Part shown: positions 2,864 to 33,861 of the stretch, piece after piece
Layout: every line of letters starts with the position of its first letter
How positions within the stretch are numbered: position 1 is the first letter of the stretch
IMG/VR virus record: IMGVR_UViG_3300018481_000001
Coordinates: 62,001 to 126,000 of that record
Source: a virus
DNA length: 64,000 nucleotides
Direction: 5' to 3' (one strand)
Notes under the pieces: model-generated
The model's input: only the letters and a program-made list of their open reading frames with translations
The model's database searches: none
What the model was told of the DNA's origin: nothing
Translations under genes and position numbers: made by a program

Positions 2864-2884
2864 AAATTAATATCTCCTTAGATG

Positions 2885-2923
2885 CTTATACCACGGTGGG
2901 TTGTGTAATAATTTGTATTACAC
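2885..2923 (-). promoter_or_regulatory. Putative promoter/operator of the left operon
   Basis: On the - strand, TGGTATAAG (2885-2893) looks like an extended -10 element upstream of the gene starting at 2863. Just upstream, GTGTAATA and TATTACAC (2903-2910 and 2916-2923) form a perfect 8-bp inverted repeat with a 5-nt spacer. This falls where the -35 would lie and no good -35 hexamer is present. An operator or activator site is plausible. Confidence 0.35.
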
Positions 2924-2930
2924 GCATTAA

Positions 2931-2979
2931 TTAAATAAAAAGGGCTCTTCTCCCCCATGGCTAAAGGAAAAGAGCCCTT
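2931..2979 (-). terminator. Rho-independent terminator (- strand)
   Basis: AAGGGCTCTT (2940-2949) pairs with AAGAGCCCTT (2970-2979), a 10-bp stem. Read on the - strand it is followed by a TTTTTATTT run. It ends the transcript of the virion-like gene at 3048-3506 before the next operon starts. Confidence 0.75.
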
Positions 2980-3047
2980 GCGAAGAACACAGACCCCGTA
3001 GCGTACGCCCCTAGGGCCATCGCCAGCAAGGCCCCTGGGCGCCTGTT

Positions 3048-3506
3048 CTAGGCCCAGTTGGTCGCTGAGGCCTTACGGATACGCAGAGACTGGTTGTCCT
3101 CGGTCAGCGTGGCGTTGGCGAGGCCCTTGATGGTCTCTGAACCATCCGCGTCGATGGTCAGTGTGCCAGTGGCCCCTGCCTTGCGGACGATGGTGACCGG
3201 ATGGCCCGCATCTACGTCAGCCAGCTTGGGCAACGTAACCGTAAATCCAGCTTCACTGGCGACCACGAGATTTTGCTCAGGGGTCACGGTGACCGCTGCA
3301 TCGACTTCCAATGCCGTAGGCACCGTCACATCGTCGAACTTCACCAAAACACCAATCAACGCCATGCGCTGGAGCATGAGAAAATCAGCATCGGTATCCA
3401 CAGGGCGTGCATCTCGAGAAACGGTTTTGCCCGGCTTGATGACCGGCATTTGCACGTGGGCCACCGAATGGCGGTTGTAGTTCGTGAGTGTGATGCGTTC
3501 CGGCAT
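3048..3506 (-). CDS. Small beta-rich virion-like protein, 152 aa
   Basis: The C-terminal half (about residues 80-152) is a run of short strands of the type VTLP, VTIVRKAG-TGTLTIDADGSETIKG, and SLRIRK ending in NWA. This pattern is common at the C-termini of phage capsid-decoration and tail proteins. The start is the ATG at 3506, preceded by AAGGAG; an upstream TTG frame extension lacks such a site. It is a lone gene with its own terminator, suggesting independent, probably high, expression. Confidence 0.6.
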   Translation of the reverse strand: MPERITLTNYNRHSVAHVQMPVIKPGKTVSRDARPVDTDADFLMLQRMALIGVLVKFDDVTVPTALEVDAAVTVTPEQNLVVASEAGFTVTLPKLADVDAGHPVTIVRKAGATGTLTIDADGSETIKGLANATLTEDNQSLRIRKASATNWA

Positions 3507-11471: not shown

Positions 11472-13436
11472 ATGGCTAAAAAAGCTCTTGGCTATACCAC
11501 AAATTCTTCTCTGCCTATTGCAGTGGGGGATACGACACCCAATCCTGGACAGCCGGGAGTGAGTGTTTGGTCAACCATTGAAAACAGCGAAGTGTGGTGG
11601 AATGGTGTTTCCTGGGAAAAACCAGGGCTCACACTGTCCAATGGATATCCTGCCGATATTGGGAATTACCCCTCGAGTGGTGTGCAGACCGTGGCGGCGC
11701 GCGGAGACCATATCCATGCGCACGGGCAGCAGTCTGACCCTACGCAGCATGCGCTGGTGACGTATGACGAAGCCGGGTTTATGTCGCCTGAGGACAAGCT
11801 CGCGCTCGATACGATGACCCAGGGCCCAGGGGGTGTAGAGCTCGCGGTAATTACGGCAGCGCCTGTACAAGACAGTGGGTCTGTGGGTGTGTCGGAGAAG
11901 GCGGCGCGTGAGGACCATGCGCATGCCCACGGGGCACAGACCGACGGGACCATGCACGCAGCGGCGTCGAGCGGAGCCGCCGGGTTTATGACCTCTGCCC
12001 AATTTACGAAATTGGCGGGGGTTGAACCCAATGCTCAAGTGGTGACGCTCGCGCGCATGAATAGTGCGACGGGGCGGGATGCAACGGTGGACGGCACCAA
12101 GCTAGATACAATTGCGGAAGGAGCAACGAACACTCTGGCACCCCCGCTGGCACCTTCGAGCGCACCTCCAGCAATAGGGTCAGCGGGTGTAACAGGGACC
12201 CCAGGCACATACGCTACCGCCACGCACTCTCACGCGGGCGTCACCAGTTTTAATAGTCGCCAAGGCGCGATAAGCCCTGCGACGGGTGATTATCACACAG
12301 GGCACATTGGCAATCAGTCGAGTGTAGATGGCACCACTGCGACGGATGCATTAAATTATATTGCCAATACTTTAATTAACGGCAAGGCCGAAAAGACTAC
12401 AACCATTACAGCAGGCTCTGGACTTACCGGTGGGGGCAGTCTTGCGGCCGATCTCACGTTATCTGTGGGAGTTATTAATAATACGCAGCATGGAAATCAA
12501 ATAGGCGGCAGTCTCCATGCGTTGGCTACGACAACAACGCATGGCTTTATGTCGGGTCCCGATAAACAAATCCTTGATGACCTTGCAATCGCGAGTGCAA
12601 GTGGGGGTTTTACGGCAACGCCACAGGCCGAACAGGTTGTGGCACAAGCCACAGGGCATTTGTACGTACAACAAGTCGCTGGGCGCGAGATGTTGGCGTT
12701 TGCACCAAGAAATAATACATTATCAAATATTCTTCAGCCACATTTGGGTGCCACACGGTTTGGTTTTTACCAAGGTGGCGGCTACAGCGGGCCGGTTCTT
12801 TTTAATTGGCAAGAAGCTACGACGGGCACTGTTTCCACCAATCAGGGTGGCGTTGGCATTACTGCCGCAGGTGTAGGGTACGCAACGGCAGCCGTTGCGG
12901 GGTCGAGTGCCTCTACCAAAATGCAAAATTGGGCGGTAAGTCGTTCGGGCGGGTCCTGGAATGGGTTTCATTATATTTGCCACTTCTCATTCACAGATGC
13001 TGCGACCCTTCCCGCTCGATGGTTTGTGGGCTTGACCCATTATTCAACGTCGATGAGTAATAGTGCCGAAACTTCAGACCAACTCGCATTTCTTATTGGC
13101 GTGGGCATGGATTCTGGCGATACAAGCATAAAATTTATTACGACTACGGATGCGCTGATCGATAAACTAATTCTTGATACAACAATGGTAAAACCATTTT
13201 CAGTAGAAACGTCGCCGCATCATTACGAGTTACATCTTTATGCGCGGCCGGGTCTAAATGCCAAAGCAACATACATGTTAAAGCGCCTCGATAAAGCTCC
13301 TAAAGAGCTGGTATCGGGTGAGCAGACACTTTGGCAAGATGCGTTTTACGTGCCCACGGTTTACTGTAATAATTTTATTTCTGCGAGCGCGAAACAGGTC
13401 GTCGTACACTCTCAGTACTTGGAAAGCAACAGGTAG
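11472..13436 (+). CDS. Tail fibre with His-rich repeats, 654 aa (tandem paralog 1)
   Basis: The N-terminus (ALGYTTNSSLPI, NPGQPGVSVWSTIENSEVWWNG) is shared with the next two genes. It is followed by two repeats ending in DHIHAHG and DHAHAHG, with GFMTSAQFTKLAGV segments between. The middle (residues about 250-380) has a different linker with TTITAGSGLTGGG. The C-terminal ~240 residues are a domain conserved among all three (LYVQQVAGREMLAFAP ... GFHYICHF ... WFVGL). HxH motifs resemble the metal-binding motifs of trimeric fibre shafts such as T4 gp37. Probably a receptor-binding fibre. Confidence 0.75.
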   Translation: MAKKALGYTTNSSLPIAVGDTTPNPGQPGVSVWSTIENSEVWWNGVSWEKPGLTLSNGYPADIGNYPSSGVQTVAARGDHIHAHGQQSDPTQHALVTYDEAGFMSPEDKLALDTMTQGPGGVELAVITAAPVQDSGSVGVSEKAAREDHAHAHGAQTDGTMHAAASSGAAGFMTSAQFTKLAGVEPNAQVVTLARMNSATGRDATVDGTKLDTIAEGATNTLAPPLAPSSAPPAIGSAGVTGTPGTYATATHSHAGVTSFNSRQGAISPATGDYHTGHIGNQSSVDGTTATDALNYIANTLINGKAEKTTTITAGSGLTGGGSLAADLTLSVGVINNTQHGNQIGGSLHALATTTTHGFMSGPDKQILDDLAIASASGGFTATPQAEQVVAQATGHLYVQQVAGREMLAFAPRNNTLSNILQPHLGATRFGFYQGGGYSGPVLFNWQEATTGTVSTNQGGVGITAAGVGYATAAVAGSSASTKMQNWAVSRSGGSWNGFHYICHFSFTDAATLPARWFVGLTHYSTSMSNSAETSDQLAFLIGVGMDSGDTSIKFITTTDALIDKLILDTTMVKPFSVETSPHHYELHLYARPGLNAKATYMLKRLDKAPKELVSGEQTLWQDAFYVPTVYCNNFISASAKQVVVHSQYLESNR

Positions 13437-13442
13437 GCTGGC

Positions 13443-15539
13443 ATGAGTAAAAAAATTCTCAACTACGTTGCGCCCCCCGCACTGGCCATTACTTCGGGTG
13501 CAACGACGCCAAATCCTGGGATTGCGGGTATTTCTGTTTGGTCTACGATCGAGCAGAAAATGGTGACGTGGAACGGAACGTCCTGGATTTCCGGGGGTAT
13601 TACTCTGGGGTCAAGTGCAGCAGTGGATATTGCAATTGCGAGTAGCCCTGGCGCTGCTGTGACAGCTGCGCGTAGTGACCACGTGCACGCCCATGGCAAT
13701 TTGTCTGTGGGTAACTTGCACGCGTTGGCAACCGGGTCGCTGCATGGATTTATGTCTTCTGCTGATTTTACGAAATTGGCAGGAATTGCAGCGGGGGCGA
13801 CTGCGACGCCTTTGTCGACAGTAAATCCTTCGGCAGTGAGTACGGCGGCAGCCATTGGTAGCAGTATTCAAGCGGCCAAGGCAGACCACGTACACGCACA
13901 CGGGGCGCAACCTTTGGGGGATGGGACAAGCCACGCGGTAGTAAATGGAACTACCGCCGGATTTATGTCCTCGGCCGATTATACAAAATTGGCAGGCATT
14001 GCGCCGGGAGCTGGTTCGACGCCTTTGTCGCTTGTGGCGCCCCCGGCGATTCAAGTCACGGGTGCTGTGGGCACGAGCAGTTCGGTGGCTCGAGGCGACC
14101 ACGTGCACGCTCATGGGGCGCAAACTGACGGTACCTTGCACGGGCTTGCAACGGGTTCGCTTAATGGATTTATGTCTCCTGCTCAATTTACGAAATTGGC
14201 GGGCATTGCGACGGGAGCAACAGCGACGACTTTGAGTACGACGACGCCGACGGCTATTGGAGTGACGGGGGCAGCAGGTAGTGGCACGTCGGCATCAAAG
14301 TTTGATCACGTGCATGCGCATGGGGTGCAGACCGATGGGACGCTGCATGCATTGGCTACTGGCAGCGTAAATGGATTCATGTCCGCCGCTGATTTTACGA
14401 AATTGGCGGGGATTGCAGCGGGAGCGACCGCAGCGCCTTATGGAAGCACAACGCCTACGACGCTGTCTTTGACAGCAACAGGTGCTGTAGGCGTAGCAAC
14501 GGCTATTTCTAGGGCGGACCACACACACCCGCACGGAAACCAAACGATAACTACGTTGCATGCTGTAGCAACGGGATCTGCAAATGGATTTTTGTCTTCG
14601 GCAAATTTTACGAAATTGGCCGGAATACCATTAACAACGGTAACTAGCGCGGGTGCTGGAGACGTTGGGAAAATCCCAGTTTTGGATTCTACTGGGCGAA
14701 TCGACGCAAGTCTCGCCAGTGCGGGCTCTTTTGATGTATCTCAAAATACGATTACTTTTACAGATCAAGCAGAACAATTAAATACAGCAACTACAGGCGC
14801 TAAGCTTTATGTTGCGAATTTTGCGGAACGTCGAATGCTAGTGCTGGCCGCGCCAAATTCTGCGCCAATGCAACCGCTACAACCGTGTCTAGGTACGGGG
14901 CATATTGCAGTTTGGAATCCGGCCGGAAGTGCAGGAGCCGGTTTTGGATTTTTGGATGTAACTGTAGGCACAATTGTATATGCCACAGGAATAAATTCAG
15001 GATCCAATGCCACGATTTCGACGGGTTCAGCTAATAATAGTTTGGCTTATTTGCGTAATGCTTGGGGCGTTTCACGCACGTTTGGTTTCCATTATATTGC
15101 ACAATTTCAATTAGCGACTGTGGCAACCCGCTGGTTTGTTGGATTGAGCAGTGCGCCACTAGGGTCAGGAGACCCGGCTGCGCAGCCAGTTAATCTCATT
15201 GGATTTGGACAAGAAACTGGTGACAGTCTTATCAGTATTATTACATCGACAGCCGTCGGAGGCCAACAAGTAAAGGTACCGTTTACGGGCTGGCCTACCC
15301 CAACACCCAATACATCTACCTATGAAGCACATATTTTTTGTTCTGCAGCGGATACAACAAAAGTCGGGTACATGCTTCGAAGAATTCAGGTAACTCCGAA
15401 CGTAATTGTTTCTGGAATTATTAGTACAGGTCTGCCAGACCCAACCGTTACGGTAAATCCAATAATTTGGCTATCCAATGGTTTGGTAGGTGACTTCCAA
15501 ATCATGCGGCTTACGTCGCAGTACCATGAAAGGTATTGA
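13443..15539 (+). CDS. Tail fibre with five His-rich repeats, 698 aa (tandem paralog 2)
   Basis: Same N-terminal NPGIAGISVWSTIEQ module, then five repeats of about 65-70 residues. Each repeat has an Ala/Thr/Ser-rich spacer, DHVHAHG, a ThrLeuHisAla-type strand and GFMSxADFTKLAGI. The C-terminal domain is homologous to that of the flanking genes (FGFHYIAQF, TRWFVGLSS, YEAHIF). The regularity implies a repetitive trimeric shaft with one HxHxH metal site per repeat. Confidence 0.75.
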   Translation: MSKKILNYVAPPALAITSGATTPNPGIAGISVWSTIEQKMVTWNGTSWISGGITLGSSAAVDIAIASSPGAAVTAARSDHVHAHGNLSVGNLHALATGSLHGFMSSADFTKLAGIAAGATATPLSTVNPSAVSTAAAIGSSIQAAKADHVHAHGAQPLGDGTSHAVVNGTTAGFMSSADYTKLAGIAPGAGSTPLSLVAPPAIQVTGAVGTSSSVARGDHVHAHGAQTDGTLHGLATGSLNGFMSPAQFTKLAGIATGATATTLSTTTPTAIGVTGAAGSGTSASKFDHVHAHGVQTDGTLHALATGSVNGFMSAADFTKLAGIAAGATAAPYGSTTPTTLSLTATGAVGVATAISRADHTHPHGNQTITTLHAVATGSANGFLSSANFTKLAGIPLTTVTSAGAGDVGKIPVLDSTGRIDASLASAGSFDVSQNTITFTDQAEQLNTATTGAKLYVANFAERRMLVLAAPNSAPMQPLQPCLGTGHIAVWNPAGSAGAGFGFLDVTVGTIVYATGINSGSNATISTGSANNSLAYLRNAWGVSRTFGFHYIAQFQLATVATRWFVGLSSAPLGSGDPAAQPVNLIGFGQETGDSLISIITSTAVGGQQVKVPFTGWPTPTPNTSTYEAHIFCSAADTTKVGYMLRRIQVTPNVIVSGIISTGLPDPTVTVNPIIWLSNGLVGDFQIMRLTSQYHERY

Positions 15540-15547
15540 GGTAAAGT

Positions 15548-17749
15548 ATGCCAAAAAAAGCTCTTAATTATTTGGTTTTGCCCTCACGACCTATTGCGGC
15601 GGGAGCAGCGACGCCAAATCCAGGTATTGTTGGCGTGAGCATCTGGTCTAGCACAGAAATTGCTGAATTAATTTGGGATGGTACGAGCTGGCAATTGTCT
15701 GGCGCAGGGCTTAGCGCTACCACGCCACTTACATTGGTAAGCACGACCTCTGCAGCGGGGACTGCTTCAACGGCGGCTAAGACAGACCATACGCATGCAC
15801 ATGGTATTCAGAGTGGTACGTCGTTGCATGAATTAGCGTCGGGCTCTAGCGCTGGTTTTATATCGTCGACTGATTTTACGAAATTAGCGAGCATTGCTGC
15901 CAATGCGAGCGTACTGGCAATTACGGTATCTACAACACCCTCTGACTTGAGTACAGCGGCTATTGGAACGAGTACGGAAGCAGCACACGCTGATCACGAA
16001 CACCGCCATGGTTCACAAACTGACGGGACGCACCACGCACTAGCTACTGGCAGTGTGCCGGGATTTATGGCGCCCGCTGACTTCACGAAGCTAGGACTCG
16101 TGGAAGAAGGAGCCACTGCGCCACAGACCTTAGGGGGTGGTCCGAGTGTGTTGGCTTTGACAGGTGCAGCGGGTTCTTTATCAACGGTGTCGCGCCAAGA
16201 TCACACACATACGCATAACGTATTTACGGACCCAACGTTACACGCACCTGCAAATGGAACGACCGCTGGATTTATGACATCCAGTGATTTTACGAAATTG
16301 GCAAGTAGCGTAACAAGTGCAACCAGTACACCTGTTGAAACGACTATTGCACCACAACCATTACATGCGACAGCAGGTTCTGCAGGGTCTGCAATTGGCG
16401 CGAGTGCTGATACGCACGTGCATCCGCACGGCGCACAAACTACGGCAACACACCATGCTGCTGTAACAGCAAGTGTTGCTGGGTTTATGACGGCAGCACA
16501 ATATACTAAATTGGAAGGCATTTCTCCGGGAGCACCCGCAGAAGCACTACCTACCCTGGCTACAGGGGCGCCGCCAGCGATTACTGCAACCGGTGACGCG
16601 GGTGTTTTGACGACTGCTGCACGAGAAAACCATATCCATGCACATGGAGATTTAACTGACCCTTCTCTCCATGCAGTAGCAACTGCGTCTGTGCCAGGGT
16701 TTGTTCCGTCAGCATTGCAAGCAAAACTTGATGCGCTGGTATACGCAGTTGCAGGGCAAGGAGTAGCGAATGCGGGAAAAGTTATACTATTGGATGCAAC
16801 AGGTAAAATTGCTTCAGAATATGCGGGAGACGGCTCGCGAGGCACGATTGATAATCCCACACAAGACATAATTAATTTAGCGGTGGCGCCCACCCAGCCT
16901 GTTACATATAGCGGCACTGGAGGCGGTAAAATTTATATTAAAAATATAAATAGTATAAACAAACTACAATTTGCACCGGCAAATGATCAATCAGTAAGAC
17001 CGATTCAACAATTTTTGGGCACCACAAAAAGCCAGTATCTTGGATTTATGCTTCCTACTGCAACACAGTATAATTTTCGATGTGGTGCGGGGGTTTCTGC
17101 AGGTTCTAACGATATTGTTTCAAATGAGATAATTCGTGAACGCAGTTGTTATAACATAGTAGCAGGCTATACTGCTAGCACATATTCAACAGCGGCATTT
17201 ACTGCATCGAGTATGGCGGTTAGAAGAAGTAATGGATTTTATATTATCTTTACGTATAATGAAGGGGGCGCAGGAAAACTGTGCTGGGTGAATGCCATTA
17301 ATGGCATGGCGTTCATTGGATTAAGTCCGCAGTATGATTATACGACTTCTCCTGGAGTATTTAACAATACGCCTAATCGACTTGGATTTGGACTTGTGCG
17401 GTATACAACTGCGGGTAATACAGACACCACACGTGAAAGAAGGGTAACCTCATCCGATGCAACAGGGTCCCCACCATCGAGTTGGCGTGCATTGACCACC
17501 CATATTCCAACTAATACCGATATCATGGAATTGCATATATTTTGTACACCATTCGATACAACAAAAGTATATTGGCAAATAAAAAATACAACGGTCAACG
17601 TGTCTGAAGAAGGAATTATTACAGGGAGCTTACCTGCCGTAAACAGTTTATTGACGCCTGGTATGTATTACCAAAATTATGCGAACGCAACGGTGCTCAG
17701 TAGTATGAATCTTTTAAGCATCTATACAGAACAACCCGTCTACATGTAA
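15548..17749 (+). CDS. Tail fibre with His-rich repeats, 733 aa (tandem paralog 3)
   Basis: GAGGT precedes the ATG. The N-terminus (NPGIVGVSIWSSTEIAELIWDG) and at least five repeats (DHTHAHG, DHEHRHG, DHTHTHN, THVHPHG, NHIHAHG) follow the paralogs. The C-terminal domain (FYIIFTYNEG, WVNAINGMAFIGLS, MELHIF) is more diverged and slightly longer, as expected for a receptor-contacting tip. Three copies side by side suggest duplication and specialisation. Confidence 0.75.
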   Translation: MPKKALNYLVLPSRPIAAGAATPNPGIVGVSIWSSTEIAELIWDGTSWQLSGAGLSATTPLTLVSTTSAAGTASTAAKTDHTHAHGIQSGTSLHELASGSSAGFISSTDFTKLASIAANASVLAITVSTTPSDLSTAAIGTSTEAAHADHEHRHGSQTDGTHHALATGSVPGFMAPADFTKLGLVEEGATAPQTLGGGPSVLALTGAAGSLSTVSRQDHTHTHNVFTDPTLHAPANGTTAGFMTSSDFTKLASSVTSATSTPVETTIAPQPLHATAGSAGSAIGASADTHVHPHGAQTTATHHAAVTASVAGFMTAAQYTKLEGISPGAPAEALPTLATGAPPAITATGDAGVLTTAARENHIHAHGDLTDPSLHAVATASVPGFVPSALQAKLDALVYAVAGQGVANAGKVILLDATGKIASEYAGDGSRGTIDNPTQDIINLAVAPTQPVTYSGTGGGKIYIKNINSINKLQFAPANDQSVRPIQQFLGTTKSQYLGFMLPTATQYNFRCGAGVSAGSNDIVSNEIIRERSCYNIVAGYTASTYSTAAFTASSMAVRRSNGFYIIFTYNEGGAGKLCWVNAINGMAFIGLSPQYDYTTSPGVFNNTPNRLGFGLVRYTTAGNTDTTRERRVTSSDATGSPPSSWRALTTHIPTNTDIMELHIFCTPFDTTKVYWQIKNTTVNVSEEGIITGSLPAVNSLLTPGMYYQNYANATVLSSMNLLSIYTEQPVYM

Positions 17750-29021: not shown

Positions 29022-29828
29022 CTACTTACATAACGCTTGTAGGTAGCTGCGCTGGGCTTCAGAAAGGTCAGGCATACGCAGCAGGAAATGAATGTATGAT
29101 GGGTCCTTTTCTCGTACCGTTGACGCAAATTCACCATTGTATTTACCGCCCGTAAAAAGCCACACGGGTTTCTCACGGTCAATGCATGTGAGAATGTGGT
29201 TGTCGGGAAGTTTATGCACAAACTTGGTGCCATCGATACCGACCAATTGGCGCATGGAATCGCGCATAGCGCGCATGAGGCCGATGGTGGTTTGAATATC
29301 GCTAAGTGCCGAGTGCGCATCGGTGTGTTCGACGTTGTAGCTCTCTGCGAGGCGACCCAGCTGGTAGCTGGTGCGGCATTTGTCGTGATGAACAATATCC
29401 GTAAAAGCCGCGATGCTGAGCGTATCAATACCCCAATAGCTAAATAAATCAGTGAATTTCTTGTCACCACGAGGCAGCTGTACGTAGCGTGTAAAGAGTG
29501 CCTCGACGAAATTTTTGTCAAAGGGCAGGTTATGCGCAATGAGCTTCATGCTCCACTGGCCGCGCAAGAAATATTGGACTTGGCCAAACATTTCTTCTTG
29601 CGTGACGGCGCCCTTTTCAATCCAGGCTTCGGGGGTAAAGCCGTTGATGCGCGCTGCGTCGGGGTCAATTTCTGCCTTGGCATCAGGCAGTGCATGGATA
29701 ATTTTCTCGGCGATAGGGGTCAAATCCTCCTTGAGGAGGATCATACCGAGCGAAATTATCTGATGCTTTTTAGGATTGGTTCCCGTGGTCTCGGTGTCGA
29801 ACCCGAGGAAAGTAGCCTTAACTGGCAT
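29022..29828 (-). CDS. DnaQ-like 3'-5' exonuclease (DEDDh), 268 aa
   Basis: ExoI motif FDTETTG at residues 10-16 (Asp11, Glu13), ExoII AHNLPFDKNF near residue 98 with its Asp, and ExoIII HTDAHSALSDIQTT near residue 168 with His and Asp. All four catalytic acidic residues and the His are present. The family removes 3'-terminal nucleotides as proofreader, RNase T-like trimmer or repair nuclease. No polymerase domain is fused. Next to a dNMP kinase, which suggests a role in DNA metabolism. Confidence 0.85.
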   Translation of the reverse strand: MPVKATFLGFDTETTGTNPKKHQIISLGMILLKEDLTPIAEKIIHALPDAKAEIDPDAARINGFTPEAWIEKGAVTQEEMFGQVQYFLRGQWSMKLIAHNLPFDKNFVEALFTRYVQLPRGDKKFTDLFSYWGIDTLSIAAFTDIVHHDKCRTSYQLGRLAESYNVEHTDAHSALSDIQTTIGLMRAMRDSMRQLVGIDGTKFVHKLPDNHILTCIDREKPVWLFTGGKYNGEFASTVREKDPSYIHFLLRMPDLSEAQRSYLQALCK

Positions 29829-30385
29829 AAAAAGTCCTCAACACGATTTCGCAAACAATACAAGTCCTGCTCGTGGTTGTCGATGGAGTGATCGTGTCGA
29901 ATTTCATCCATTTCTTGTTCGGAGGCATGCGTAGCTGGAACTGCGTCTGCAGAGGCACGGAACAAGCGCAGCACGATACCTCCATGTTCTTGGATGATGC
30001 GAGCTTCTGACCAGAACCTGACGTCACTAACGAACACTACGTCTGCGCCATCCTGCAGGAGCCGCCGTGCGTTGGTATACATGGTCCTAGACCAGACTTC
30101 TGTGTCGATGTTGCGAAAGCACTCGGTACCTACGAACTGCATGATGCGCCGGCCTGTCCACGTAGGCAGCATGGGCAGAGGTGCTTCTTTATCCGACTGG
30201 GAGCCGTAAAAGGCACTACGCGGCACGCCATAGGCCGGGCCAAAAATCTGCGAACATATTTGTTTAATGGGCTCGGCACACGAGATGACGATGGCGCATT
30301 TGCCAGCCTCTCTCAAAAGTTCAACACCCATATTGCACACAGTATCTTTGCCGGCGCTCACACGCCCCATAACGCCAATAATCAT
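29756..30385 (-). CDS. Deoxynucleoside monophosphate kinase, 209 aa
   Basis: A P-loop (GRVSAGKDT, residues 7-15) lies at the very N-terminus, followed by MQFVGTECFRNIDTEVWSRTM, which matches the substrate-binding stretch of T4 gp1-type dNMP kinases, and VFVSDVRFWSEARII. This is the standard order for phage dNMP kinases, which phosphorylate dNMPs for phage DNA synthesis. It overlaps the exonuclease by 73 nt, and the C-terminal 25 residues may be dispensable. Confidence 0.8.
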   Translation of the reverse strand: MIIGVMGRVSAGKDTVCNMGVELLREAGKCAIVISCAEPIKQICSQIFGPAYGVPRSAFYGSQSDKEAPLPMLPTWTGRRIMQFVGTECFRNIDTEVWSRTMYTNARRLLQDGADVVFVSDVRFWSEARIIQEHGGIVLRLFRASADAVPATHASEQEMDEIRHDHSIDNHEQDLYCLRNRVEDFLCQLRLLSSGSTPRPREPILKSIR

Positions 30386-31751: not shown

Positions 31752-31783
31752 CCTAAAAAAATCAGCCTGGCGCCGGCTGATTT
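31752..31783 (-). terminator. Intrinsic terminator ending the structured-RNA region
   Basis: On the - strand AAATCAGCC pairs with GGCTGATTT (9 bp; 31759-31767 and 31775-31783, loop of 7 nt), followed at once by a run of seven T. There is no T-run on the + strand. It therefore ends transcription arriving from the right, i.e. the structured region, not the gene at 31733. Confidence 0.75.
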
Positions 31784-32660
31784 GAAAAGAACACGCTTCG
31801 CTATGGGCGACAGATTAGACATCGCGGGTGGCACAAACGGCTTCGCGACGTTTCCTCGAGTTCTCGTAGGCCCTCCTTAGCGCTTGGAATAGCGCCGAAG
31901 AGAAGCTCGAGGAAACTCGCGGAGACGGCTTGGGCCACACGAGAGGTCTAATCTGACGATTATGCCATCTCGGGCCACACGCACATATCACCAGCGGTAC
32001 GCTGATGGAACGTGATATTCCGTGTTCTTTTACTTAAGCTTTTATGCGTAGAAATCTACGTGCTGAAGAGTGACCTGTAGCGTGCTCCGCCGGAGTTGCT
32101 TTGAGCTCCGGCGGTGTGCGCGGAGGGATTCCTCCTCGTGCATTTATTATTTTACTGCGGCTGGCGGTACGCCAACATTAAGTATTCCACGTAGAAATCA
32201 ACGCGCCTAAAGGCTGCTTTCAGAGTCCCTTGGGACCTTGTAAGGCGCCTCGTGTACCAAAACATTGGGCCGTGCTGGCGGTACACCAGCATAAAAAAGT
32301 CCACGTTGATTTACGAACACGCCTCGGTGTGATTACCACCCAGTGATTAAGCGTCGGGTCGCGGCGTTAATAATTTACGACATTGGCGGTACGCCAATTT
32401 TATGCGCTAGCGCATGCCGTGTTCGTACGTCTTCACCTATGGGTTGTCCCGCTCTTCACTGGGGTGTAAGCACTGGAGTGCAGCGCCCTGAAAAGCTTTT
32501 GCAGCGTAGACGGTACGTCTACCTTTAGTAAGGTCGTGAAGACGCTGTCTTACGTAAACGCCCCTCAGCGTTTGGGGTTTATTAAGGTACTTAATTAAAC
32601 CCTGCGGACACATCACAACGGCGCCGGTACAGCGCCTCGGTGGCTAGCACCGAGCACAGC
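31784..32660 (-). ncRNA. Putative large structured non-coding RNA (about 0.9-1.1 kb)
   Basis: No coding frame is credible, but nearly all of it is self-complementary. Long-range or extended helices: 31811-31820 with 31946-31955 (10 bp); 31850-31860 with 31906-31916 (11 bp); 31985-31991 with 32012-32018 (7 bp); 32087-32095 with 32106-32114 (9 bp); 32195-32203 with 32304-32312 (9 bp); 32428-32436 with 32536-32544 (9 bp); 32575-32586 with 32590-32602 (12 bp, one bulge); 32636-32642 with 32648-32654 (7 bp). GGGCCACACG is directly repeated at 31932 and 31972. Seven hairpins share one apical heptamer (separate entry). The - strand is favoured by U-G closing pairs and the terminator at 31752. The 5' boundary may reach 32,834-32,890, next to the stop of the AT-hook gene. 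Resembles GOLLD/ROOL-type ornate phage RNAs in size and complexity, but no class was recognised. Confidence 0.6.
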
Positions 32661-32834
32661 GTTCTGCCTAGAGTACGTACAATTAATTTATTATTCATTT
32701 CAGCTTTGGGAAACGAATAATAAATCAATTTTGAGGCTTTTACGATGTTTATACAATTTCAGCGGAGCGACCCGCAGGGGAAATTTTATAAAGATCGGAT
32801 CAGCCAGAAACCACGGCGATGTCGGTACAACATC
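31992..32834 (-). repeat. Family of seven hairpins with apical YGUACCG
   Basis: On the - strand each hairpin has variable complementary arms closing the same 7-nt apex CGUACCG or UGUACCG. Positions: 31992-32004, 32162-32174, 32273-32291, 32382-32398, 32506-32522, 32620-32636 and 32818-32834. Four have the C-G form and three the U-G form at the heptamer ends; on the + strand the latter would be C-A mismatches. A related hairpin at 32582-32594 has AGUACCU. Spacing is mostly 110-200 nt. Confidence 0.75.
32686..32725. repeat. 11-bp AT-rich inverted repeat
   Basis: ATTTATTATTC (32686-32696) and GAATAATAAAT (32715-32725) are perfect complements around an 18-nt loop. It lies just 5' (on the - strand) of the dense structured region and contains a TATTAT that could serve as a -10 element on that strand. 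Promoter, RNA stem or operator. Confidence 0.5.
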
Positions 32835-32892
32835 TATCGGGAGATCTCCCGAGCGCAGAATACGTTCTTATACCGTAAACGCCGTGTATTTT

Positions 32893-33780
32893 TCAGCCGG
32901 CCTGCTGCAGGTCGTTGCTGCCGTTGACAAAGCGGGGCTTATTGGTCGAGCCCTTCGGACGACCAGGACCACGCTTCACTACGGTGCCATCAGAAATGGG
33001 CGCAACGTTCACAGCAGCTTCGACGCGGGGCTTATTGGTCGAGCCCTTCGGACGACCAGGACCACGCTTTACTTCACCCGTGGGCTGAGCAACCGGAGCG
33101 GTCTGAGCGGCAGCAACGCGGGGAGCGTGCTGGGCTGCAGGACCGGCAGCGGGCGTGGTTCGAACCGCACGAACGGCCGGAGCCGCAGGTGCCTGCGCAA
33201 CAGGAGCCGCAGCGACCGCCTGGGGGTTCTTCGGCGGACGACCACGACGCTTGGGCGCAACGGCCGGTGCCGTGGCAGCAACGAACACAGGGACGGGAGC
33301 CGCCGCCTGCGTGTACGGCAGCTCAGGCTGACGCACCTTGGGCGGACGACCACGACGCTTGGGCTCCTGCGAAACCGCTGCCGAGGGCTGCACGGGCTGC
33401 GCAATAACCGCCTGAGGATTCTTCGGCGGACGACCACGACGCTTGGGCATAGTGGCAATTGCGACCGAAGCAGAAAGCTCCGACTCGAGAGGCTGCACGG
33501 GGTTTTTGGGCGGGCGACCCGGACCACGCGCCGACAAAATCGTGGCATCTCCCAAAGTAATTTCGGGAAGAGGCAACGACGCAACCTGCGTCAACAGCTT
33601 GAACTGCTTGGTAGCCGTCGCAAGGCACGCCCGGTAATGCGCCAGATCAACCGGCGAAAGCGTGCCGCTCGTCGCAAGGGTATTTACGGACGAAACTACA
33701 TCGCGAAGACGCACAAGCTGGTTTTCAGCCTGACGCTTACTCTCGGTGACGATACGAAGGGCATTGGGGCGGGCGGCCAT
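32893..33780 (-). CDS. Six-AT-hook nucleoid-like protein, 295 aa
   Basis: Residues 1-80 form a helical domain (SKRQAENQLVRLRDVV..., LAHYRACLATATKQFKLLTQV). The rest is Ala/Pro-rich linker with six AT-hook-type motifs: RGPGRPPKNP near 85, RRGRPPK near 114, 142 and 178, and two RGPGRPKGSTNKPR near 240 and 270. AT hooks bind the minor groove of AT-rich DNA. A phage DNA-organising or transcription-modulating protein is likely. It starts at ATG 33780, behind a sigma70-like promoter, and its transcript may run into the structured RNA downstream. Confidence 0.75.
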   Translation of the reverse strand: MAARPNALRIVTESKRQAENQLVRLRDVVSSVNTLATSGTLSPVDLAHYRACLATATKQFKLLTQVASLPLPEITLGDATILSARGPGRPPKNPVQPLESELSASVAIATMPKRRGRPPKNPQAVIAQPVQPSAAVSQEPKRRGRPPKVRQPELPYTQAAAPVPVFVAATAPAVAPKRRGRPPKNPQAVAAAPVAQAPAAPAVRAVRTTPAAGPAAQHAPRVAAAQTAPVAQPTGEVKRGPGRPKGSTNKPRVEAAVNVAPISDGTVVKRGPGRPKGSTNKPRFVNGSNDLQQAG

Positions 33781-33835
33781 GACGTGTCTCCTGTGTACTG
33801 CGGGTGTTTTGGAAACCCAGAATCGATATGTTGAA

Positions 33836-33861
33836 AGTATAGCGCGCAGACAATAAGTCAA
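33836..33861 (-). promoter_or_regulatory. Putative promoter of the AT-hook gene
   Basis: On the - strand TTGACT (33856-33861) and TATACT (33836-33841) are close to consensus, but the spacer is only 14 nt. It lies 56-81 nt before the ATG. The short spacer lowers confidence or hints at an activator. Confidence 0.35.

Follow-up and report, generated by a model that had tools for sequence, protein, structure and literature searches.

The minus (-) strand of the 64,000-nucleotide stretch of viral DNA analysed here (the window, taken from a virus record of 179,934 bp) carries a large structured non-coding RNA, which very probably belongs to a class absent from Rfam. The RNA is structured beyond chance and built around one repeated hairpin, comparable RNAs recur in a clade of related phages, and selection acts on them as RNA.

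A structured non-coding region on the - strand

The original prediction, made from the letters of the sequence alone, placed a large, ornate RNA at 31,784–32,834 on the - strand, in about 1 kb without a coding frame. We found no ORF of at least 60 amino acids on that strand between 31,834 and 32,893. The - strand from 31,752 to 32,740 (989 nt) folded to −398.8 kcal/mol, against −309.2 ± 8.8 kcal/mol for shuffled sequences (z = −10.2), and helices of at least 8 bp with at most one G·U pair numbered 28, against 12.5 ± 3.4 in 80 shuffles (maximum 23). When 800-nt windows were folded across all 64 kb, this region was the most extreme (z = −4.4 on the - strand, −3.75 on the + strand). The predicted absence of a coding frame, density of helices and exceptional self-complementarity were thus all borne out, and the region, long and non-coding, is more structured than chance would give, as expected of large phage non-coding RNAs. 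With 240-nt windows over the same 64 kb the RNA region was unremarkable, and much of its structure is therefore longer-range. A strong local fold detected at that smaller scale, at 2,881–3,120 (z = −3.7), resembles a gene end followed by an ordinary terminator hairpin. The + strand of the RNA region was almost as stable relative to shuffles (z = −10.1), so that folding energy alone cannot assign the strand.

An intrinsic terminator lies at 31,759–31,783 on the - strand, with its U run extending to about 31,755. It had been predicted for the - strand only, a restriction that did not hold, since weaker terminator-like matches also occur on the + strand. Taking the 989-nt fold, the folds of individual domains and the absence of an ORF together, we propose a transcript spanning 31,752–32,886 (-), with its 5′ end near 32,886, its 3′ end at the terminator and a length of about 1.1–1.13 kb. 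The structured region of the original prediction therefore stands, whereas its upstream limit very likely does not: the RNA probably starts further upstream, near 32,886, because an additional domain (U0) was found there.

A chain of domains displaying one hairpin loop

Two features had been overlooked in the original prediction, namely eight GUACC hairpins and a layout of domains in a chain. All eight GUACC sequences on the - strand of the RNA form the loops of perfect 5–8 bp hairpins with unrelated stems, seven of them in the form Y-GUACC-G. Elsewhere in the window GUACC was a hairpin loop at 1 of 76 sites on the - strand and at none of 62 on the + strand (1/138 in total). A scan free of any assumption about loop sequence, which required at least four hairpins with different stems sharing one loop per 1.2 kb, singled out only the window RNA in its own genome and the first relatives; in 80 terminase loci it found one relative, with loop GUAAC. 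A search with the pattern GTACCGCC..GGYGTACCGCC found matches in 64 viral contigs; these were nowhere clustered and were dismissed as chance.

The RNA resolves into five or six folded domains of 75–250 nt, nearly all showing the same-loop hairpin, when boundaries are set by eye at the closing stems and the pieces then folded, a procedure distinct from blind detection. Reading 5′ to 3′ on the - strand, domain U0 (32,811–32,886; closing stem CACGGCG/CGCCGUG, GUACC hairpin at 32,828) is followed by a 21-bp A+T-rich hairpin seen in the fold (32,681–32,730) and by an irregular segment (32,549–32,680) with GUACC hairpins at 32,630 and 32,590. Domain U1 (32,428–32,548) is closed by CGUCUUCAC/GUGAAGACG and has its GUACC hairpin at 32,516; U2 (32,313–32,426) is closed by ACGAACACG/CGUGUUCGU, with the hairpin at 32,392; U3 (32,197–32,310) by AUCAACG/CGUUGAU, with the hairpin at 32,284; and U4 (32,055–32,195) by UCUACGUG/CACGUAGA, with the hairpin at 32,170. 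The last domain, U5 (31,785–32,030; closing stem AAAGAACACG/CGUGUUCUUU), combines a GUACC hairpin at 32,000 with a long irregular helix. The closing stems of U1–U4 abut within 1–2 nt, and U5 starts 24 nt further on.

Comparison with known RNAs

To our knowledge, only a handful of giant RNA classes exist in bacteria and phages. In one of these, GOLLD, the 3′ region is conserved and the 5′ region variable, and tRNAs often lie nearby. GOLLD is a giant structured phage non-coding RNA, often over 800 nt, and ROOL a large ornate RNA found in phages and prophages; both are of unknown function and form RNA-only cages by kissing loops and A-minor contacts (PMC12286853). The window RNA is likewise giant, ornately structured and phage-borne. 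It differs from GOLLD in being a domain chain with one repeated hairpin, and from ROOL in its architecture, and the 64-kb window contains no tRNA. At the gathering threshold, Rfam gave no matches to GOLLD, ROOL or any other RNA in the window or in 10 related loci (103.5 kb), and on the region itself, at E up to 10, it gave chance matches only, none of them ROOL. These scores do not support membership of either GOLLD or ROOL. The original prediction had left the choice between a new class and a diverged GOLLD or ROOL; the lack of an Rfam match, the related regions in other phages and the selection on RNA together favour a new class. No description of such an RNA was found in the open-access literature searched.

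Sponge RNAs of the CsrB/RsmZ type offer a protein many copies of one hairpin motif on a single RNA. The window RNA also repeats one hairpin motif, and display to a protein is proposed by analogy. Its motif, however, is Y-GNNNC-G rather than GGA, it is about three times longer, and its domains are closed, with stems that abut. The loops that recur are GUACC, and not the many GGA-bearing hairpin loops of a CsrA-type sponge. Type III toxin–antitoxin RNAs, which also occur in phages, are short near-identical pseudoknot repeats adjoining a toxin gene. The window RNA shares with them its repeated structured units and could, like them or as a decoy against host defence, mimic a host RNA in repeated form; a loop that changes between phages would suit an arms race. 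We consider this reading very unlikely, as the units are about 75–250 nt long and unrelated in sequence instead of short, near-identical pseudoknot repeats, and no toxin-like gene was recognised beside the RNA with Pfam or PHROG.

Genome setting and RNAs in the same gene neighbourhood

The genome encodes a multisubunit RNA polymerase, a family A DNA polymerase carrying a UDG domain and a DnaG-like primase, and gave a weak HK97-type capsid signal. Its RNA polymerase (L073:15489-19877 and L074:923-2731) has the beta subunit and the N-terminal half of beta′ as one fusion, with the remainder of beta′ as a second gene, and the DNA polymerase (L072:12391-15444) is fused to a uracil-DNA-glycosylase-like domain. 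Three large paralogous proteins with similar N-termini (MxKKxLxY..) are encoded in tandem at 11,472–17,749 of the window and are probably tail-fibre or surface proteins. The nearest cultivated phages, Salmonella phage Arash and Vibrio phages D181, D148 and D69, are distant (RNA polymerase 34–36% identical), and the parts examined of Arash (about 91 kb) and D181 (about 77 kb) contained no such array. No terminase relatives were found in genome_contigs, so there was no host hint from this source.

Upstream of the RNA lies a gene for a 322-aa AT-hook-like repeat protein (32,893–33,861, -), whose stop codon falls a few bases before domain U0; a deoxynucleoside monophosphate kinase (dNMP kinase) gene, named by family match, lies downstream (29,756–30,385, -). 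Neighbours with family matches encode the kinase, an exonuclease and a helicase, and the small neighbour genes had no Pfam or PHROG match.

Relatives were gathered first with the RNA polymerase, which gave 12 records, and next with the terminase, for which 80 loci of 45–80% identity were kept; the 137-aa neighbour gene and the helicase, used as protein queries, yielded none. Alignment-based scans from the window recovered a single relative, G009. BLAST of the window RNA against INPHARED phages returned 27-nt chance matches only, and BLAST of the RNAs of two relatives returned no matches. An alignable homologue of the window's own RNA was not found, and covariation for this RNA consequently rests on the eight hairpins that it contains.

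Two phages, G009 and G015, whose neighbour enzyme is 48–49% identical, have comparable RNAs in this gene neighbourhood. In G009 the AT-hook gene, a conserved neighbour, and the dNMP kinase gene (48%) flank thymidylate synthase, dihydrofolate reductase (enzyme names read from sequence), a small gene and 1.2 kb of structured non-coding sequence. Two overlapping windows of this sequence folded with z = −6.7 and −4.5, and it also contains an A+T-rich hairpin, of 16 bp. In G015 such a stretch is bordered by thymidylate synthase and dNMP kinase and has ten hairpins of the Y-GNNNC-G type; it includes a 333-aa ORF of doubtful status. The dNMP kinase gene comes directly after the RNA in both phages. 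This placement upstream of dNMP kinase in three phages, together with a start a few bases past the upstream stop codon and a closing terminator, would suit a cis-acting or processed untranslated RNA that governs stability, processing or termination of a nucleotide-metabolism operon transcript. We regard that explanation as improbable, since arrays elsewhere in the clade have different neighbours, the terminase gene being convergent with them, and the size and repetition exceed those of the leader and terminator elements familiar to us.

In another relative, G002, the DNA polymerase ORF (L124:6502-10839) has a long insertion of roughly 400 codons, possibly an intein. In G001, about 500 nt at L118:10090-10585 are non-coding and strongly structured, and lack the repeated hairpin.

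Hairpin arrays elsewhere in the clade

Other clade members have arrays of Y-GNNNC-G hairpins at other sites, mostly convergent with the terminase gene. In G005, G008, G011, L158, L159, L163, L164, L185, L207, L211 and L214 the array lies between the terminase and the DNA polymerase side, convergent with terminase; G025 has ten hairpins arrayed away from terminase. Eight large records were scanned over most of their length: five contained arrays (G015, G042, G028, G025 and G057), and three (G024, G030 and G035) had none of the Y-GNNNC-G loop type. The common hairpin form and shared clade, rather than alignable sequence, suggest that the window RNA and the terminase-adjacent arrays share an ancestor.

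The loop is often uniform inside one RNA and differs from phage to phage, as does hairpin number. It is GUACC in the window RNA, mostly GUUCC in G005, GUUUC in L207, mainly GUAAC in L185 and GCUAC in L211; in G015 and G025 the loops are mixed, so uniformity is not universal among relatives. This pattern bears on an RNA-only assembly, in which the domain chain would multimerise or form a regular particle by docking or kissing of its triloop hairpins, like the GOLLD and ROOL cages. The window RNA shares its size range and phage setting with those cage-forming RNAs (PMC12286853), GUAC, which lies within GUACC, is self-complementary, and linkers rich in purines occur repeatedly in relatives. Loop self-kissing was nevertheless rejected as a shared mechanism, because the loops of several relatives, such as GUUUC and GUUCC, cannot self-pair; given also the absence of an Rfam match, we consider RNA-only assembly rather unlikely. 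A loop that tends to be uniform within an RNA and differs between phages fits a co-evolving protein better than self-kissing, for the same reason.

In L185 and L163, segments that follow successive purine-rich linkers paired preferentially compared with non-consecutive segments (P = 0.006 and 0.016, respectively), which resembles the window RNA's own domain chain; G011 did not pass this test (P = 0.29). G011 has about 16 hairpin units at L111:15170-16840 with the linker AGARAAGG repeated between them, and a second hairpin array at L111:10200-11250, outside the terminase–polymerase interval. A 68-aa ORF lies within the RNA region of G005 (L136:3376-3582), and G008 has a small ORF of little sequence similarity at the equivalent place.

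Selection acting on the RNA

Among hairpins with one irregular pair in 15 RNA regions (17.7 kb), the RNA strand had 40 G·U, 1 A·C and 7 other irregular pairs. Background G·U and A·C are equal by construction when both strands are counted, and the ratio is somewhat inflated because regions and strands were mostly chosen using hairpins that allow G·U. For the window RNA, whose strand had been fixed beforehand by the original prediction, the ratio was 5:0.

Compensatory double changes numbered 33 against 12–16, and 41 against 12–18, in slid registers, depending on the span allowed. These counts pool two alignable pairs of relatives, L163/L159 and G005/G008 (the latter in two pieces), and both directions of each pair, so that the cells are not independent. 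One-sided changes that break predicted pairs were also frequent, and each computed fold is thus only partly right; covariation was weak on whole minimum-free-energy structures and better on local pairs. The G·U/A·C asymmetry and the compensatory changes together indicate that selection acts on the RNA in this family. Of the covariation that had been proposed as a check, the compensatory excess comes from these two pairs of relatives. The family thus shows what is general for large phage non-coding RNAs, conserved presence with compensatory change or G·U-tolerant stems, the compensatory part coming from relatives. The prediction of a large, ornate RNA on the - strand is supported.

The asymmetry also bears on whether the region could be a DNA-level element, such as an origin, a packaging site or a set of recombination hairpins. 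The + strand folds nearly as well, and arrays adjoin the terminase gene in many relatives. DNA cruciforms, however, would not give stem irregularities that are G·U and not A·C, 40 to 1 on one strand; the terminator is on the same strand as the RNA, and in the window's own genome the RNA lies far from the terminase gene. A DNA-level explanation is therefore extremely improbable.

Proposed function and significance

By analogy with sponge RNAs, we tentatively favour, at slightly less than even confidence, a multivalent scaffold or decoy. A non-coding RNA of about 1.13 kb would be transcribed from the - strand, ended by the intrinsic terminator, and would fold as a chain of domains, each with its own closing stem. 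The domains would present a Y-GNNNC-G hairpin, here with loop GUACC, so that one transcript would show the same recognition hairpin many times over and bind many copies of one partner. That partner would probably be a phage- or host-encoded protein, for which the RNA would act as a scaffold or decoy; expression, partner and the choice between scaffolding and sequestration are what we infer here.

For the class as a whole, we see an even chance that its members are linear polymers of similar folded domains, an RNA having about 4 to 10 or more hairpin units and every domain displaying a Y-GNNNC-G hairpin whose loop is set per phage lineage. They would then be an RNA analogue of repeat proteins, found widely across a large clade of uncultivated phages with an RNA polymerase of their own. 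GOLLD and ROOL proved to form unexpected RNA-only cages. A class that Rfam lacks, whose architecture is modular and countable and whose loop is lineage-specific, opens a clear route to function: its loop can serve directly as bait for the partner, and the number of units can be changed without changing the loop, and vice versa.
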